From: a virus
Reading direction: 5' to 3' (one strand)
DNA: 54,745 nt
IMG/VR virus record: IMGVR_UViG_3300023210_000042
Location: 1 to 54,745 of that record
In this document: one piece after another, positions 422 through 54,536 of the stretch
How positions within the stretch are numbered: the stretch's first letter is position 1
Layout: the number at the start of each line of letters is the position of its first letter
Translations under genes and position numbers: made by a program
Notes under the pieces: generated by a model
Seen by the model: only the letters and a program-made list of their open reading frames with translations
Database searches by the model: none
Told to the model about the DNA's origin: nothing

Positions 422-799
422 ATACTGTGGATTAAGAAAATGTGATGTATAGTCTAAAAATAATTCTTCTCCTGCTTCTATGTCTTGTAGGGCCTTTACT
501 AATAAATCATTTGATTGATTATATAGAAAAGCTATATTCGGATTGGCTGAATGGTTAGTGTATCTACCTAGATATGTTTTATATGTATTATCAATAGAAG
601 CCATTCCAATAAAACCATCTTTTAAAATTTTACGCTTAGCAAACATTCCATAACCATGTATGTTTGATTTTCTACGTTCTGCAAGATGAGACTTGACATC
701 TATAACAGGTCCGGTATCTGATAGTTTGTTTAACTCTTCTATTGTTAGATTAAGTTTATCTAAAACATATTGAATATCAAAGTTCTTTTTTTGCATCAC
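416..799 (-). CDS. SET-domain protein (putative lysine methyltransferase)
   Basis: 127 residues. The SET signature is complete in order: IHGYGMFA (about 48-54, the G-x-G SAM-binding loop), GRYTNHSANPN (about 78-88, equivalent to R-NHS-PN) and GEELFLDYTSH (about 110-120, equivalent to the EL-DY active-site tyrosine region). The length is close to the minimal viral SET protein vSET of chlorella viruses (about 119 residues). SET enzymes transfer methyl from SAM to protein lysines; the substrate here is unknown. It starts inside the end of the winged-helix gene (23-bp overlap), so the two form one minus-strand operon within a plus-strand region. The run of lysine-rich phage proteins at 2.3-3.7 kb makes self-encoded substrates conceivable, but that is speculation. 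Confidence 0.8.
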   Translation of the reverse strand: MMQKKNFDIQYVLDKLNLTIEELNKLSDTGPVIDVKSHLAERRKSNIHGYGMFAKRKILKDGFIGMASIDNTYKTYLGRYTNHSANPNIAFLYNQSNDLLVKALQDIEAGEELFLDYTSHFLNPQYL

Positions 800-1214
800 G
801 AATCTCTTTGTTTATTTGAATTATAAAATTTCGATACACCTTGTCGGTGTATGACACGTTCTTAGCAAACATGGGGTTAAATGATGTACTGGTAGGAATC
901 TCTTTACCCTCTAACTTTTTATATATACCACTTATTACTCTTTCAGTTTTGTATGATAACTGATATATTCCCTTTCTATTTCTAGAGCCTTTTCTGAAAA
1001 CCTCAATCCAGCCATCTCTAAGTAATTTATCAAATCTATTAACGTCCCACGATAGTAGCTCATCAAACTCTTCAAACTTATCTTTAGAGAAATAATCTTC
1101 TGAGTATAGGAATAGCAGCATGTCTAAATCAGCTTGTGATAATCCGTACTTTGCTTTTATAAAATACCTGATAACCCTCCAGTATTTTAGATAATCAGAA
1201 CCTTGAATATACAT
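777..1214 (-). CDS. Putative winged-helix DNA-binding regulator
   Basis: 145 residues. Residues about 10-95 read like a MarR/PadR-type winged helix: YWRVIRYFIKAKYGLSQADLDMLLFLYSEDYFSKDKFEEF is helical, followed by a recognition-helix-like segment (WDVNRFDKLLRDGWIEVFRKG) and a basic wing (GSRNRKGIYQLSYKTERVI). The C-terminal 50 residues are helical and basic. It is the first gene of a minus-strand pair with the SET gene and is transcribed from the short divergent region at 1215-1253. Autoregulation through the inverted -7 elements there, and control of the plus-strand cluster, are plausible. The fold is judged from sequence pattern only. Confidence 0.55.
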   Translation of the reverse strand: MYIQGSDYLKYWRVIRYFIKAKYGLSQADLDMLLFLYSEDYFSKDKFEEFDELLSWDVNRFDKLLRDGWIEVFRKGSRNRKGIYQLSYKTERVISGIYKKLEGKEIPTSTSFNPMFAKNVSYTDKVYRNFIIQINKEIRDAKKEL

Positions 1215-1227
1215 AAATTAAATTTTG

Positions 1228-1246
1228 TAACTTTGCAACAAAGATA
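1228..1246. promoter_or_regulatory. Divergent promoter pair with inverted repeat CTTTG-CAA-CAAAG
   Basis: The 39-bp gap between the minus-strand regulator (start 1214) and the plus-strand gene (start 1254) carries TAACTTTG on the + strand (1228-1235) and TATCTTTG on the - strand (1246-1239). Both match the Bacteroidetes -7 consensus TAnnTTTG. A TTG at 1203-1205 could be the + strand -33 (22-nt spacer). The two elements form a small palindrome, CTTTG CAA CAAAG, so only one polymerase can occupy the site at a time, and a bound regulator would block both. Confidence 0.6.
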
Positions 1247-1253
1247 ATAAATT

Positions 1254-1484
1254 ATGCCAGATAAGCCAGAAGACAAAACTGAAAAAAAAGTTGATAATAA
1301 AGTTGATAACGATGCTATTAACTTTAAGAATGCAGCAATAAATAAAATTAAAAATTTGCAAGCTGCTTTAGATAAAGAGAAAAGCAAAAAGAAAACGAAA
1401 AATCCACCAGTCGTTGTTGCAACTAGACTTCGAGGCATGAGAAGCTTTGGCGAAAATACTAAGGCAAGTAAAAGAAACGCATAA
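1254..1484 (+). CDS. Small charged protein of unknown function
   Basis: 76 residues, not recognised. It is highly charged: an acidic/basic start (PDKPEDKTEKKVDNKVDNDA), a predicted helix (AINKIKNLQAALDKEKSKKKTKN) and a basic tail (RLRGMRSFGENTKASKRNA). The tail ends in KRNA, recalling the VRNA end of the basic protein at 2908-3150. It has the + strand divergent promoter just upstream, and its stop overlaps the next ATG (TAATG at 1482-1486). Confidence 0.6.
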   Translation: MPDKPEDKTEKKVDNKVDNDAINFKNAAINKIKNLQAALDKEKSKKKTKNPPVVVATRLRGMRSFGENTKASKRNA

Positions 1485-1648
1485 TGGGACTAGCAATAGG
1501 TAATGGAAATGGAATACCATTTCAAGACAAAAGAAACGAAGACATACCAGACATATGTTTTATAATAACAGAGAACGATGAGTTCTGTGAACAAGAATTA
1601 GTAATTGGAGATAGTAGAATGTTTCCTGAGTTATGCGTAGCACCTTAA
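1484..1648 (+). CDS. Small protein of unknown function (54 aa)
   Basis: A 54-residue ORF starting at 1484 in the TAATG overlap with the previous gene, which supports coupling. It begins GLAIGNGNGIPFQDKR and ends CVAP; two acidic segments surround two cysteines (DICFII, EFCEQE). I do not recognise it. It ends 16 bp before the next gene, so it fits the tightly packed plus-strand operon. Short glycine-rich phage proteins of this kind are common next to fibre genes, but no role can be assigned. Confidence 0.5.
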   Translation: MGLAIGNGNGIPFQDKRNEDIPDICFIITENDEFCEQELVIGDSRMFPELCVAP

Positions 1649-1664
1649 AAAAAAATAATTAAAA

Positions 1665-2249
1665 ATGGCAAATAAGAAATTTTCACAATTTGAAATAAAA
1701 ACAGACCCTAGTCAAGTTGATTTTCTAGTAGGTTACACAGGTCTAGAGAATATACAGATATCTACAGACGATTTACTTCCAGAAATAGTACAGCCAAAGT
1801 CTATTGTAGCAGGAACATTCCATAATTTATTTGGAGGCGACCCTGGGATTTTTGGTGACACATTAGAATTCGGCATACAAGCACTTCCGTTAAGCGACAG
1901 TTCATCGGTTTTGTGTGTTCCTTTTGATTGCAAAATTGTAGCTGCGTCTATAAAATTTATATCAAATGATGCAGTTTCTATTACAGCAGGTAACAGCTAT
2001 CAAGTAAAGCTTTACAAGATGAATAATAATTCAGGGAAAACAACTGATGCGTCTAATTATGATTTTGTTGGAGATTTTAGCGGACTGTTATTAGATAGTT
2101 CTGACAGTGGAGGCTTTCCTTTTAAGACAAGCACAACTGAATTTATTCTGTCTGCAGGTGATATTATAAATGTATCTGGAGTTGAGTCTGGGACAATTTT
2201 ATCTAGTGATGCGGAAATGGAAATGTCAATAGTGATACAACCAATATAA
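1665..2249 (+). CDS. Probable virion surface or fibre-related protein
   Basis: 194 residues, mostly predicted beta strand. The N-terminus (MANKKFSQFEIKTDPSQVDFLVGYTGLENIQISTDDLLPEIV) has the same layout as the N-terminus of the large tail fibre at 5594-8806 (short basic start, then P-x(4)-D-F/Y-L-V/I-G, then a T/S-x-D/GD-I-like turn). Such segments commonly attach phage fibres to the virion. The remainder (about 45-194) is Ser/Gly/Asp-rich with alternating hydrophobics and looks like a beta-sandwich head. It could be a short fibre, a decoration protein or a fibre tip. The attachment analogy is my reading, not a database match. Confidence 0.5.
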   Translation: MANKKFSQFEIKTDPSQVDFLVGYTGLENIQISTDDLLPEIVQPKSIVAGTFHNLFGGDPGIFGDTLEFGIQALPLSDSSSVLCVPFDCKIVAASIKFISNDAVSITAGNSYQVKLYKMNNNSGKTTDASNYDFVGDFSGLLLDSSDSGGFPFKTSTTEFILSAGDIINVSGVESGTILSSDAEMEMSIVIQPI

Positions 2250-2260
2250 AGAATAATAAA

Positions 2261-2506
2261 ATGGAAGAAATGAAGAAACCTTGTATAAAGGAATTATACC
2301 CAGGAAAGAAAAGAAGCGAGCTAGGCTCAATGGAAAAGGAAAGGGTAAGGGCTTGTAAGCAACAGCGCATCAGAGACTTTAAAAATAAAATGAAGGGCGT
2401 TGTGAAAAAAGTTGGAGAAGGTATTGAGGATGCCGCTAAAACAGTTAAGGAGGTTGCTACAGGAGAAAAGAAAATAACCATTACTGATGCCAAGAAAAAA
2501 AGCTAA
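2261..2506 (+). CDS. Lysine-rich small protein
   Basis: 81 residues, strongly basic, predicted helical through most of its length (SMEKERVRACKQQRIRDFKNKMKGVVKKVGEGIEDAAKTVKEVA). The amphipathic GVVKKVGEGIEDAAKTVKEV segment resembles lipid- or DNA-coating helices, but no family is recognised. It is the first of a run of six short Lys/Arg-rich ORFs, and its end overlaps the next one by 20 bp. Confidence 0.6.
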   Translation: MEEMKKPCIKELYPGKKRSELGSMEKERVRACKQQRIRDFKNKMKGVVKKVGEGIEDAAKTVKEVATGEKKITITDAKKKS

Positions 2507-2645
2507 ACGTAAAGGAAATAAAATTTGTGCTGCAGGAATATCATGGGCTAAAAGAACCTTTGATAAATATCCGTCTGCGTATGCGAATATGGCTGCAAGC
2601 AAATACTGTAAAGACCCTAATTACGCTAAGGGAAAAAAGAAATAA
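2487..2645 (+). CDS. Basic cysteine-containing small protein (52 aa)
   Basis: A 52-residue ORF starting at 2487 inside the end of the preceding gene. It starts PRKKAKRKGNKIC and continues AAGISWAKRTFDKYPSAYANMAASKYCKDPNYAKGKKK. Two cysteines flank an aromatic-rich helical core. The pattern SWAKRTFDKYPSAYANMAASKYCKDP resembles small basic proteins I associate with marine phage genomes. Its role is unknown; charge and size would allow nucleic-acid binding. The length, conserved-looking core and operon position argue that it is real. Confidence 0.65.
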   Translation: MPRKKAKRKGNKICAAGISWAKRTFDKYPSAYANMAASKYCKDPNYAKGKKK

Positions 2646-2647
2646 TT

Positions 2648-2908
2648 ATGAATTGTAAAGGGTTAAAAAACAGAAAATTAAAAAAGTGTATGAAGGCTTA
2701 TGTCAAGCAATCGACAAGGCAGTTTCCTACATTTAATCAAGAACAGGATACGATTATTACAACAAGCGGAACGAATCGTAGCGCAGTAACAGGACATCAT
2801 ACCATGAAACTACAAGCATACGGACAGGGCCAAGGAGAATCTAACAATTCATATTTTAGTGACGGAAGTTATATATCTAGAAATAAAGTAAAGAAAAAGA
2901 AGAAGTAA
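2648..2908 (+). CDS. Small basic protein of unknown function
   Basis: 86 residues. It has a basic cysteine-containing N-terminus (NCKGLKNRKLKKCMKAYVKQS), a polar middle that may be disordered (TTSGTNRSAVTGHHTMKLQAYGQGQGESNNS) and a lysine tail (NKVKKKKK). Its stop (TAA 2906-2908) shares one base with the next ATG at 2908. Not recognised; part of the basic-protein run. Confidence 0.55.
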   Translation: MNCKGLKNRKLKKCMKAYVKQSTRQFPTFNQEQDTIITTSGTNRSAVTGHHTMKLQAYGQGQGESNNSYFSDGSYISRNKVKKKKK

Positions 2909-3150
2909 TGGGTGAGCTTAAAAAATGGCGAGATGAGAAATGGGTAAGGATAGGAACGGATGGTACGATAAAAGGACCATGCGGAACTTCTAAGAACAAA
3001 AAGAACCCTGACCGATGTTTGCCGTTAGCTAAAGCTCGAAGTTTATCAAAAAGACAATTGGCTGCAACAGCTAGAAAGAAAAAGCAGGCTGGGAAGAAAG
3101 GAAAACAATTTGTTGCTAATACATCAGCGGCAAGAGTAAGAAACGCATAG
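2908..3150 (+). CDS. Small basic protein, KW-x-I/CG...RCLP-type
   Basis: 80 residues, very basic. It shows a pattern shared by a family of small phage and large-virus proteins as I remember it: KWVRIGTDGTIKGPCGTSKNKKNPDRCLPLAKARSLSKRQLAATARKKK, that is, W-V-x-I, then a G-x-CG turn, then P-x-RCLP and a basic helix. The two cysteines could bind metal or form a disulfide. The tail is basic and ends FVANTSAARVRNA. A function is not established; a DNA-condensing or minor head role is speculation. Confidence 0.6.
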   Translation: MGELKKWRDEKWVRIGTDGTIKGPCGTSKNKKNPDRCLPLAKARSLSKRQLAATARKKKQAGKKGKQFVANTSAARVRNA

Positions 3151-3151
3151 T

Positions 3152-3442
3152 ATGGCAGATAAAAGCAAAATGGCCTGCAATAAACCAAGGACCTCTGACA
3201 GAGCTGGTAAAAAGAAAATGGTAAAAGCTTGTGAGGGCGGAAAGGAAAAGCTAATTCACTTTGGTGCGAAAGGTTATGGACACAACTATTCAGCAGCTGC
3301 ACGAAAGAGTTTTAAGGCACGTCACAAGTGCGGAACAGCAAAATCAAAACTAACAGCACGCTATTGGGCATGCAAGAATTTATGGGCCGGTAAGGGTGGT
3401 TCAACAAAGTCATCCCCAAAAACTCGTAAAGGAAAATATTAG
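3152..3442 (+). CDS. Small basic protein, HFGAKGYGHNYS / RHKC / YWACKNLW type
   Basis: 96 residues, very basic. Distinctive segments are KEKLIHFGAKGYGHNYS (about 30-46), ARKSFKARHKC (about 50-60) and KSKLTARYWACKNLWAGKGG (about 64-84). This order (HFG, then FKARH-C, then T-x-x-YWxCx-LW) recurs in small proteins of many environmental phages and some large DNA viruses, where it has no known function. Four cysteines and several histidines could bind zinc. It follows the previous basic gene after one base. Confidence 0.65.
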   Translation: MADKSKMACNKPRTSDRAGKKKMVKACEGGKEKLIHFGAKGYGHNYSAAARKSFKARHKCGTAKSKLTARYWACKNLWAGKGGSTKSSPKTRKGKY

Positions 3443-3450
3443 TATCTTTG
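3443..3450 (+). promoter_or_regulatory. Late-type promoter -7 element TATCTTTG
   Basis: TATCTTTG, followed by TA, sits immediately after the stop of the preceding gene and 29 bp before the ATG at 3480. It matches the Bacteroidetes -7 consensus exactly. No TTG is seen at the -33 distance. The same TATCTTTGTA occurs before the genes at 5354, 18517 and 27529. Confidence 0.55.
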
Positions 3451-3479
3451 TATTATATTAATTGAAAAAATAAATAATA

Positions 3480-3737
3480 ATGTCGTGTATAGGATTAACA
3501 GGTAAGGCTTTATTAGATTGTAAAAAAAAGAATAAGCTAAAAGCGTCCCCTGCACAAAAAGGGGATATGTATTATGATAATCAATATTACGATAAAAGTC
3601 ATATGCGAAAAACACCAAAGCCAAAAATGAAAGACTTACCATTAGGGTCTACACCAAGAATGGAGGAATATGTAAAAAGAGGATGGAGATTAGATTCTAC
3701 TGTTTCTAACGCAATTAAACGTAAGGCTAAAAAATAA
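3480..3737 (+). CDS. Small basic protein of unknown function
   Basis: 85 residues, basic. It begins SCIGLTGKALLDCKKKNKLK, a short helix between two cysteines, followed by a tyrosine-rich stretch (GDMYYDNQYYDKSH) and a basic C-terminus (GWRLDSTVSNAIKRKAKK). It has its own -7 element at 3443-3450. Not recognised. Confidence 0.6.
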   Translation: MSCIGLTGKALLDCKKKNKLKASPAQKGDMYYDNQYYDKSHMRKTPKPKMKDLPLGSTPRMEEYVKRGWRLDSTVSNAIKRKAKK

Positions 3738-3741
3738 TTAA

Positions 3742-3885
3742 ATGGGAAAAGCATTTATAAAATTAGGATTGTGGATTCAATCTGTATGGTGTAAGTTTCA
3801 ATGTATATGGAATTCATGGACGCAAGCAATTAGTTTTAAAAACATTGATAAGTGTCCAAATAAATTATGTACTTGTAAAAAATGA
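3742..3885 (+). CDS. Small Trp/Cys-rich protein (47 aa)
   Basis: A 47-residue ORF from ATG 3742, four bases after the previous stop. The N-terminal 30 residues are hydrophobic and tryptophan-rich with few charges (KAFIKLGLWIQSVWCKFQCIWNSWTQAISF) and could be an amphipathic or membrane-associated helix. The tail KCPNKLCTCKK has three closely spaced cysteines. Its stop overlaps the next ATG as ATGA (3882-3885). A membrane role near the lysis genes is possible but unproven. Confidence 0.5.
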   Translation: MGKAFIKLGLWIQSVWCKFQCIWNSWTQAISFKNIDKCPNKLCTCKK

Positions 3886-4037
3886 AGTCAACAGGATTAG
3901 GAGATACCATCGAAAAAATAACTACCGCAACTGGAATTAAGAAAGTAGTTGATACTTTAAGCAAGGTGACAGGGAAACCTTGTGGATGCAATCAGCGTAG
4001 AGATAGTTTAAATAGAAAATTCCCTTACAGTAAATAA
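3882..4037 (+). CDS. Small CGC/FPY-type protein (51 aa)
   Basis: A 51-residue ORF coupled by ATGA to the previous gene. It has an amphipathic helix (GLGDTIEKITTATGIKKVVDTLSKVTG) followed by PCGCNQRRDSLNRKFPYSK. The combination of a TGIKKVVD helix with a CGC...R...LN..FPY end is one I have seen repeatedly near lysis genes of Bacteroidetes phages, with no known function. The CGC motif may bind metal. Confidence 0.6.
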   Translation: MKSTGLGDTIEKITTATGIKKVVDTLSKVTGKPCGCNQRRDSLNRKFPYSK

Positions 4038-4043
4038 AAAAAA

Positions 4044-4307
4044 ATGGCATATACAAAATTAACAGCTAATAGAGCCGCTGTAGTAACCCCAAGCGACACA
4101 GACTTGATACCAAATGTATCAAACCCTGATGGGATAAACAACGGATGTGCTTTATACATAGGATTACCAGGGAACGTAAGAGTTCAAACAGCAGGCGGTG
4201 ATGATGTAATATTTGTTGGATGTTATGCAGGACAGTTTTTCCCTGTAAACGTGGTTCAAGTTTACAATACAGGCACAACTGCCGGAGAAATAGTAGCACT
4301 ATGGTAG
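4044..4307 (+). CDS. Small structural (decoration/fibre-base-like) protein
   Basis: 87 residues, beta-rich: ALYIGLPGNVRVQTAGGDDVIFVGCYAGQFFPVNVVQVYNTGTTAGEIVALW. The G-x-V-x-V-x-T-A-G-G-D-x-V-x-F-x-G...AG-x-F-P-V-x-V-x-x-V...GTTA-x-x-I-VALW pattern is typical of a short beta-barrel protein found in many tailed phages near tail or head decoration genes. A virion role is likely from this resemblance but not proven by context, because it stands directly upstream of the lysis cassette. Confidence 0.55.
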   Translation: MAYTKLTANRAAVVTPSDTDLIPNVSNPDGINNGCALYIGLPGNVRVQTAGGDDVIFVGCYAGQFFPVNVVQVYNTGTTAGEIVALW

Positions 4308-4372
4308 GATATATCCAAAACAATAGCGCACTATTAGATATAGAAGTAGAGTATATACTTGTTAAAGAATAA
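4301..4372 (+). CDS. Possible micro-ORF (23 aa)
   Basis: A 23-residue ORF (MVGYIQNNSALLDIEVEYILVKE) that overlaps the previous stop at its start and the next start at its end (TAATG). Perfect tiling between two coupled genes is the only support. It may just be a translational relay or chance. Confidence 0.3.
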   Translation: MVGYIQNNSALLDIEVEYILVKE

Positions 4373-4533
4373 TGAATTTGCAAGATATTAAAATATACGC
4401 CATTAACTTTTTTAGCCTTGCTATTTCAATGACTCACGTAGAAATGGTTTTAAAATTAATTCTATTAGTAGCTTCTATAGTATATACAGCTCAAAGAATA
4501 TGGATTAATTATAATGAAAAGAAAGATAAATAA
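4372..4533 (+). CDS. Small membrane protein of the lysis cassette
   Basis: 53 residues, with a long hydrophobic stretch (IYAINFFSLAISMTHVEMVLKLILLVASIVYTAQRIWI, about 8-45) that can form two short or one long transmembrane segment, then a charged tail NYNEKKDK on the presumed cytoplasmic side. It overlaps the start of the amidase gene by 20 bp. By position it could be a holin, antiholin or spanin-like accessory; which one cannot be told. Confidence 0.6.
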   Translation: MNLQDIKIYAINFFSLAISMTHVEMVLKLILLVASIVYTAQRIWINYNEKKDK

Positions 4534-50792: not shown

Positions 50793-51410
50793 AACTTTTT
50801 TATTTAATTCTTCCAAAGTCTCAGCAATTCTGCCCTCTTCCAGTGGCTCATAAGCCAGGTAATAACCTGCAGGAAAAGTCTGTTCTGGAGTAACATGGTC
50901 AGATAGTAGCACCATGTATTCTACTCCATTAACTTCAACAATATCTTCTGATATCTCTGGCAAATCCCATGAGAAAGAATGTATACATTCTCCGTTCTGG
51001 TACTCTTCTTCTGCGCCAAATCCTTGCTCTTCTTCCCAGGTCCAGATAAAATCTGGCAATTTCTTGGTTAGTAAATAAAGAACATCAAAGTTGAAAGGTG
51101 ACCACGCTGTAGTAAAATGTAAAGTCCCTTGGACCTCATAATAATGGTTGTCATAGCAACCCCACTTAGTACCCCAGTTTCTATAGCACCAGTCGTACCA
51201 GTTGTCGTAACCATACAAGTCTTTCAATCTGTCAGACTCTTCTCTTGATATATTTTCTGGTATTCGCTCTGGACTTGTTGTTCCTGTCAACTCCTTAGGC
51301 ATTGGTTTTACGTATCCACATATTCCGTATTCGGTTTTGGATATTTCTTTTAATACTTTACGACCTTTGTCTGTCGTAGCTTTGATTATGTGATAAACGT
51401 GATTAGGCAT
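50778..51410 (-). CDS. YubB/DUF1281-like ferredoxin-fold protein
   Basis: 210 residues from Met at 51410 (MPNHVYHIIKATTD), chosen over a start 39 bp upstream because PNHV begins the domain. Key features: N-terminal MPNHV, the RNWGTKWGCYDNHYYEVQGTLHFTTAWSPFNFDVL stretch (about 90-125), with W-G-x-K-W-x-x-x-x, and acidic ends. The pattern of W-G-x-K-W and a following beta strand with SP is that of YubB/DUF1281 proteins found on plasmids and phages. Function unknown. It overlaps the small coiled protein upstream by 8 bp. Confidence 0.65.
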   Translation of the reverse strand: MPNHVYHIIKATTDKGRKVLKEISKTEYGICGYVKPMPKELTGTTSPERIPENISREESDRLKDLYGYDNWYDWCYRNWGTKWGCYDNHYYEVQGTLHFTTAWSPFNFDVLYLLTKKLPDFIWTWEEEQGFGAEEEYQNGECIHSFSWDLPEISEDIVEVNGVEYMVLLSDHVTPEQTFPAGYYLAYEPLEEGRIAETLEELNKKVLDNS

Positions 51411-51561
51411 AATTATTTTTTTTAAGTGATTCAATTTCTTTTCTAGCATCTATTAGGTCTAGCTTTGTTTGGACTAACTCATCCTCATCTTTCGCTAACT
51501 GAATTTCAAGTGCACTTATCCTTGCTTCAAGGTAGTCCACTAAGGTTTCTTCTGTGCTCAT
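51403..51561 (-). CDS. Small coiled-coil protein (52 aa)
   Basis: A 52-residue ORF starting at 51561, overlapping the preceding gene as ATGA. It has heptad-like spacing throughout (LVDYLEARISALEIQLAKDEDELVQTKLDLIDARKEIESLKK), a near-perfect coiled coil. Not recognised; a dimerising adaptor is possible. Tight overlaps on both sides support it. Confidence 0.6.
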   Translation of the reverse strand: MSTEETLVDYLEARISALEIQLAKDEDELVQTKLDLIDARKEIESLKKNNYA

Positions 51562-51764
51562 ACCTCAGTTAGTTTAGTTAAACGCTCCATTTTCACCTCG
51601 TCTGAAAGTGTGTCCCAGTTGCTTGGTGGTTGCCAGTCTGGAACAGCATTACGCATTGTCGCAAATGCTATACGCTGTTTGTAAGCTACCTTGTCTGCCA
51701 AGGTGCTGTTTTCGTTGGTCATGTCTCCAAGGAGCATGAACATCTTCATTGCATCTATACTCAT
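51558..51764 (-). CDS. Small protein downstream of hammerhead A
   Basis: 68 residues: SIDAMKMFMLLGDMTNENSTLADKVAYKQRIAFATMRNAVPDWQPPSNWDTLSDEVKMERLTKLTEV. Not recognised. It starts 34 nt after the predicted hammerhead cleavage point, and its leader holds a small hairpin GGCGAAAGCC. It is the first gene of the transcript that begins at the promoter 51861-51891. Confidence 0.55.
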   Translation of the reverse strand: MSIDAMKMFMLLGDMTNENSTLADKVAYKQRIAFATMRNAVPDWQPPSNWDTLSDEVKMERLTKLTEV

Positions 51765-51792
51765 AATAAAATAAATTTAGTGGCTTTCGCCT

Positions 51793-51850
51793 GATTAAGA
51801 GAGTAGGAAAACTCCTACCCTTTCGACTACTAAAGTCTCATCAGTTAATC
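51793..51850 (-). ncRNA. Hammerhead ribozyme A (type I)
   Basis: Minus-strand order: stem I GATTAA; core CTGATGA; stem II GACT, loop TTAGT, AGTC; core GAAA; stem III GGGTAGGA, loop GTTT, TCCTACTC (8 pairs, one G-U); then T and C before the closing stem I strand TTAATC. All conserved hammerhead positions are present, including the G-C pair closing stem II and the A-U pair closing stem III. The predicted cut is after the C opposite 51799. Transcription from the promoter at 51861-51891 would begin only a few bases before the ribozyme, so this message should start with a self-cleaving leader. Confidence 0.93.
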
Positions 51851-51860
51851 TAAAGTTCGA

Positions 51861-51891
51861 CAAATGTAAAACTTAATTTCGACATATCCAA
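51861..51891 (-). promoter_or_regulatory. Minus-strand promoter TTG-N20-TACATTTG before hammerhead A
   Basis: On the minus strand TTG (51891-51889), 20 nt, then TACATTTG (51868-51861). The expected start, about 5-8 nt after the -7 element, falls within a few bases of the first base of hammerhead A (51850). It also serves the downstream genes at 51764 and below. Confidence 0.6.
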
Positions 51892-51894
51892 ATA

Positions 51895-51912
51895 TACTAT
51901 GCATGCATAGTA
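51895..51912. repeat. 18-bp perfect palindrome
   Basis: TACTATGCATGCATAGTA is its own reverse complement. It sits between the gene end at 51916 and the promoter at 51861-51891. It could be an operator for that promoter or a small hairpin at the end of the upstream message; no T-run follows. Confidence 0.75.
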
Positions 51913-51915
51913 AAT

Positions 51916-52059
51916 TTACTTCCAACCATTCTCTAATTTAATTTTCTGCCACCACGTTAGCTGTTGGTATTCTAATTCTGTGTAGATATGCACTCTATTT
52001 TTCTGGTCCACGATTGCGTGTAGTCCAGTCGGCAGAATTTTGTGTTGCTTAATTTTCAT
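51916..52059 (-). CDS. Small protein (47 aa) of the early operon
   Basis: A 47-residue ORF starting at 52059 that overlaps the previous stop as ATGA. Sequence KIKQHKILPTGLHAIVDQKNRVHIYTELEYQQLTWWQKIKLENGWK, with a TWW pair and a basic N-terminus. Not recognised. The coupling overlap and the gap it fills before the 18-bp palindrome support it. Confidence 0.55.
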   Translation of the reverse strand: MKIKQHKILPTGLHAIVDQKNRVHIYTELEYQQLTWWQKIKLENGWK

Positions 52060-52331: not shown

Positions 52332-52396
52332 GATTAAGACAGCTATGCAAATAGATTGCACAACTGTTTCGGATACTGAATCCTCATCAGTTAATC
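52332..52396 (-). ncRNA. Hammerhead ribozyme B (type I)
   Basis: Minus-strand order: GATTAA; CTGATGA; stem II GGAT, loop TCAGT, ATCC; GAAA; stem III CAG, internal loop, TGCAA, loop TCTAT, TTGCA, internal loop, CTG; then T, C and TTAATC. The stem II pairs differ from copies A and C (GACT/AGTC) and D (GACC/GGTC) with both sides changed, which is direct covariation. Predicted cut after the C opposite 52338. It lies between the gene ending at 52407 and the gene starting at 52316. Confidence 0.92.
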
Positions 52397-53713: not shown

Positions 53714-53767
53714 GATTAAGACCACCTGTGAAGGTGGTTTCGACTATTGAAGTCTCATCAGTTAATC
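53714..53767 (-). ncRNA. Hammerhead ribozyme C (type I)
   Basis: Minus-strand order: GATTAA; CTGATGA; stem II GACT, loop TCAAT, AGTC; GAAA; stem III CCACC, loop TTCACA, GGTGG; T, C and TTAATC. The compact 5-bp stem III makes this the clearest copy. The TAA stop codon (53764-53762) of the upstream gene lies inside the 5' strand of stem I. The stem can extend past an A-A mismatch by about four more pairs. Predicted cut after the C opposite 53720. Confidence 0.94.
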
Positions 53768-54480: not shown

Positions 54481-54536
54481 AAGATTAAGACGCACCGAAG
54501 TGCGTTTCGACCTGTAAGGTCTCATCAGTTAATCTT
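54481..54536 (-). ncRNA. Hammerhead ribozyme D (type I)
   Basis: Minus-strand order: AAGATTAA; CTGATGA; stem II GACC, loop TTACA, GGTC; GAAA; stem III CGCAC, loop TTCG, GTGCG (a stable C-UUCG-G tetraloop); T, C, then TTAATCTT, which closes an 8-bp stem I. The TAA stop (54531-54529) of the upstream gene lies in stem I, as in copy C. Predicted cut after the C opposite 54489. Confidence 0.94.

Follow-up and report, generated by a model that had tools for sequence, protein, structure and literature searches.

The role of hammerhead ribozymes in bacteria and phages has been an unsettled question since many of them were listed in 2011. The locus examined here raises it in a specific form: at 51.8 kb of IMGVR_UViG_3300023210_000042, a Bacteroidota phage sequence of 54,745 nt, hereafter called the window, a predicted promoter stops just short of a self-cleaving motif, hammerhead A. 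Is this a device by which a message discards its own leader, or have two separate modules come to lie side by side?

The terminase of the window is nearest to that of podovirus MW202828 (78% identical), followed by those of Flavobacterium and Cellulophaga phages (~46%), and the host is presumed from the latter two groups of matches. Among the minus-strand genes after the promoter are those for DnaA-C-like, Sak annealing, PDDEXK, primase-like and SNF2-type helicase proteins, from which the promoter probably serves a DNA-metabolism block. The first of the genes after the cut encodes a 68-aa protein that had no Pfam match, and relatives of this protein were found in L125-L130; the open reading frame of the upstream 47-aa gene is present in the window, L126, L127 and L156.

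Promoter, palindrome and ribozyme at 51.8 kb

The preliminary description had placed a promoter 10 bp before hammerhead A, and this holds: the minus strand reads TTTG-N20-TACATTTG (51892-51861; the 20-bp spacer was read directly), then ten bases (51860-51851) and a complete hammerhead (51850-51793). Both boxes agree with the consensus of the main Bacteroidota sigma factor, TAnnTTTG at -7 and TTTG near -33 (PMC7366714, PMC9723704). Relatives were collected through the 68-aa protein and a scan of genome contigs; in the window and four of them (L125, L126, L127 and L156) the boxes and the N20 spacing are kept, the only change falling on a free N of the -7 box, which reads TATATTTG in all four relatives, while the spacer sequence itself is variable. 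Published -7 boxes occupy -12 to -5 (PMC9723704), so transcription is predicted to start near 51856, 6 nt before stem I. Adjoining the -33 box, and absent from the preliminary description, is the longest exact palindrome of the window, TACTATGCATGCATAGTA, which the same five phages retain, two of them with a single mismatch, and which may be an operator (Table 1). No intrinsic terminator was found on the minus strand between the upstream gene and the promoter. Elsewhere, a 16-bp exact palindrome, AGAATGTATACATTCT, lies within a 223-aa gene (window 50976-50991).

Table 1. Positions of the features discussed, in window coordinates
Feature	Position	Strand	Remark
68-aa protein gene, function not assigned	51558-51764	minus	open reading frame; first gene after the cut
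13-nt module AGGCGAAAGCCAC with 3-bp GAAA hairpin	51780-51792	minus	directly 3' of stem I
Hammerhead A, type I	51850-51793	minus	core and three stems; expected cut between 51799 and 51798
Predicted transcription start	51856, +/- a few nt	minus	counted from the -7 box position (PMC9723704)
-7 box TACATTTG	51868-51861	minus	matches Bacteroidota TAnnTTTG; same register in five phages
-33 box TTTG	51892-51889	minus	pattern match; invariant in five phages
18-bp exact palindrome TACTATGCATGCATAGTA	51895-51912	.	candidate operator
47-aa gene	51916-52059	minus	open reading frame upstream of palindrome and promoter
Hammerhead B	52332-52396	minus	core at 52390
Hammerhead C	53714-53767	minus	core at 53761; TAA stop of upstream gene in stem I
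Hammerhead D	54483-54534	minus	core at 54528; TAA stop of upstream gene in stem I

Hammerhead A holds every core nucleotide (CTGATGA and GAA), an open-ended stem I of 6 bp (GATTAA/TTAATC), a stem II of 4 bp with a 5-nt loop (GACT-TTAGT-AGTC) and a stem III that begins at A51821 and is closed by A-U. CUC precedes the cut site, in agreement with the NUH rule, and the type I signature (CUGANGA, GAAA and three stems) is complete. Six columns vary among the five close phages, all of them neutral to the fold (one at N7, two each in loops II and III, and a stem III G-U that becomes A-U). Across 31 distinct relatives that share one geometry, pairing held in 99.8% of cells and 12 of the 16 pairs had changed on both sides, compared with at most 41.5% paired in a control with the partners slid. 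Energy minimisation, in a model that does not cover tertiary contacts, predicts a misfold for hammerhead A (-17.5 kcal/mol) and places the hammerhead fold 1.9 kcal/mol above it. An extended stem I, in which TTTA of the leader would pair with TAAA beyond the hairpin, was dropped, being absent in L125 and L127.

Neither the window hammerheads nor six further loci scanned gave a gathering-level match to Rfam; the best Hammerhead_1 score was 24.5 bits in the window (hammerhead D) and reached 30.2 in L126 (curated cut-off, 34 bits). Such a score is a curated threshold and no structural definition; we file these elements as type I hammerheads on their core, stems and covariation. With none of the scanned hammerheads at the curated cut-off, they would escape routine annotation.

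If the ribozyme is active, the sequence supports removal of a leader of about 58 nt, leaving a 5'-OH message that would start UUAAUC. A self-removed leader is a plausible part of the preliminary description, whose length of ~55 nt is corrected here from a +1 near 51856. The hairpin that it had placed near the new 5' end is also there: GGCGAAAGCC, at 51791-51782, begins 7 nt into the predicted cleaved message. The 13-nt module AGGCGAAAGCCAC is invariant in the five phages while the leader after it varies, and it recurs behind a second hammerhead (L126:1111).

Hammerheads between genes in the window and beyond

Hammerhead A has company. The window contains four hammerhead cores where chance would give 0.12; all are on the minus strand, the other three upstream of hammerhead A. 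The structural finder returned 0 matches on reversed control sequence. The distance from cut to ATG is 21, 22 and 21 nt for hammerheads D, C and B, and 34 nt for hammerhead A, equal to 21 nt plus the 13-nt module. We further surveyed viral contigs with a pattern in which part of stem I is held constant, and which biases the set accordingly, and obtained at least 143 distinct hammerheads. With stops and starts assigned by simple open-reading-frame rules, an upstream stop codon lay within 14 nt of the core in 122 of 143 and a downstream ATG followed 140 of 143, at a median of 22 nt after the cut, among the matches listed. The commonest 5' UTR length is 23 nt in B. thetaiotaomicron and the median is 24 nt in F. 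psychrophilum (PMC7366714, PMC9723704). Judged by this layout, the hammerheads are putative intergenic punctuation, with cut-to-ATG distances near the published Bacteroidota 5'-UTR lengths. The regularity of stop, ribozyme, 22 nt and ATG (among the matches listed), in arrays of up to nine, makes their function testable, and a cultured system is at hand: the Flavobacterium phages elemoA (MT497017) and elemoE, on Flavobacterium sp. BAL314, each have one such hammerhead, which has a stop codon at its stem I and is followed by an ATG 28 nt beyond the predicted cut; in elemoA the gene behind this cut is that of QLF85236.

No hammerhead appeared in the scan made of MW202828, so such phages need no array. 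Among the scanned part of the window proteins, no Pfam match to an RNA ligase, RtcB or kinase was obtained.

Several minor observations concern the arrays. Hammerhead B (window 52410-52300) is flanked on either side by ATGAAAGTAAA, and the elemoA hammerhead (L164:7925-8090) by ATGAGAGCAA; the start of the downstream gene thus has a copy immediately ahead of the ribozyme, as if it had been duplicated around each. In L040, which has six hammerheads, a AAAAGTSAGGYGCASACTATAACAGGC-like element common to them takes the place of a plain A+T-rich leader ahead of the ATG. L156, a 5.8-kb contig binned as Aliivibrio, has the phage hammerhead array as well (541-4520) and is probably a phage fragment placed in the wrong bin.

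Promoter and hammerhead joined or parted in sister phages

L125 and L126 are laid out as the window is, with the promoter abutting hammerhead A and two small genes absent. L127 and L156 share the 47-aa gene, the palindrome and the promoter, but there the promoter leads into an A+T-rich leader of ~16 nt (AATTAAGTTTAAAATT-ATG, counted from the predicted start) and two small genes, and hammerhead A with its hairpin module stands behind the stop codon of the second of these, before the homologous 68-aa gene. Promoter and hammerhead A are therefore separable modules, which a two-gene difference, loss or gain, joins or parts; the promoter abuts hammerhead A because the pair of small genes lying between them in the sister phages is missing here. 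Comparison with the more distant relative L128 favoured neither loss nor gain. The result is a natural experiment: one and the same promoter would fire into a ribozyme in the window, L125 and L126 and into an ordinary leader in L127 and L156.

The explanation we regard as probable is that hammerhead A is an array hammerhead that cuts between genes, and that a separate promoter abuts it through the two-gene difference. Hammerhead A would then be one of a type I array between co-directional small genes, and the array would cut a long transcript just before each next start codon, each cut giving a 5'-OH end at a distance from the AUG that is typical of a normal Bacteroidota transcription start. 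The separate promoter, probably regulated and accompanied by its palindrome, would have met hammerhead A where the two intervening genes are missing, whether lost here or gained in the sister phages. RNA born at this promoter would begin ~6 nt before the ribozyme and shed ~58 nt, and hammerhead A would probably give it the same 5'-OH end as RNA read through from the upstream operon, with possible effects on stability or translation. We tentatively add a broader suggestion, that hammerheads stand in for transcription starts: all messages, promoter-born or read-through, might receive a 5'-OH at natural leader length, promoter placement and end chemistry would be uncoupled, and an abutting promoter would be tolerated or even favoured.

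The preliminary description had added that the arrangement could shield the message from pyrophosphohydrolase-dependent decay or set a promoter-proximal leader RNA apart from it, and both may be entertained as hypotheses. One such reading is a purpose-built device, with promoter and hammerhead co-selected so that the message always carries a 5'-OH in place of the 5'-triphosphate and escapes this decay. The components stand, since the promoter is credible and the ribozyme intact; moreover, the two abut and are both intact in the window, L125 and L126, where hammerhead changes are only neutral, and a hairpin does lie near the new 5' end. As a purpose-built device, however, the arrangement is unlikely. 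The same promoter and hammerhead stand apart in L127 and L156, and the hairpin module is present with and without an abutting promoter and is thus independent of the abutting arrangement. Among the 143 hammerheads listed, 4 had a -7 box in the 80 nt that precede stem I against 6.6 expected, which is no excess. A collection-wide pattern of promoter plus hammerhead gave 16 matches (four in a reversed-motif control), of which 14 had no hammerhead after them and were set aside; real hammerheads followed only on the L125 and L126 contigs, leaving no unrelated true case. One further promoter-like match before a hammerhead, in L074, lay inside an open reading frame and was dropped.

We give a still lower probability to the idea that hammerhead A is a relic of the two-gene arrangement, its cutting irrelevant since the promoter sets the 5' end. 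In its favour, with the promoter directly upstream, separation from the upstream gene would be needed only for read-through RNA; yet all five of the hammerhead A substitutions in the three abutting phages are fold-neutral, although the sample is small. Very improbable, finally, is a chance promoter match with hammerhead A cut only from read-through RNA: such matches do occur, as at 50793, where a second strict match was dropped because its TTTG is TTTA in L125-L127, but the match at 51892-51861 behaves differently, with 0.74 strict matches per strand expected once the sequence is randomised (a chance of ~0.0009 for the 65-bp gap), its boxes, spacing and palindrome being kept in five phages, and its position in two of them being at the proper distance before a gene.

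Relation to known ribozymes and neighbouring elements

We then compared the array with described systems. Prophage hammerhead arrays were proposed in 2011 as mRNA processors, and cleavage was reported in vitro for three and in E. coli for one (Perreault et al., PMC3088659). As in those arrays, several hammerheads here flank single genes or short blocks with one transcript direction (four in the window, all minus). The present arrays differ in having up to nine type I hammerheads in ~4.2 kb (nine in L126, eight in L156), in the stop codon in or beside stem I with a near-constant cut-to-ATG distance, and in one member directly behind a promoter. In our analysis hammerhead A fits the 2011 array-processing proposal, with the promoter presumably brought adjacent by a change in gene content.

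HHphage of the haloviruses HF1 and HF2, a hammerhead variant 13 nt upstream of an early-gene start codon, resembles the present elements in lying upstream of a start codon, but it comes from an archaeal virus, has a variant core and a single site, and was suggested to act in salt-dependent stability (PMC3088659). The RAGATH-1 hammerhead (RF03152) has a similar core and stem I pairing and gave weak matches in the window and relatives, whose best scores (24.3 bits in the window, 28.2 in relatives) stay below the cut-off of 56.3. The theta ribozymes described from gut phages (PMC10879173) are likewise phage self-cleaving RNAs linked to RNA processing, but are reported to have an HDV-like fold and to be tRNA-linked.

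A different hairpin, CCAC-GTT-AGCTCGTACC...GGTACGGGCT-TTTC-GTGG, immediately precedes the ATG with which the homologous 68-aa gene starts in L129 (1990-2056) and L130 (2113-2157); it had no Rfam match as a ribozyme and is rare in the collection. The same CCAC...GTGG hairpin, whole or partial, stands before other genes in L166, L167 and, in part, L129:118-152.
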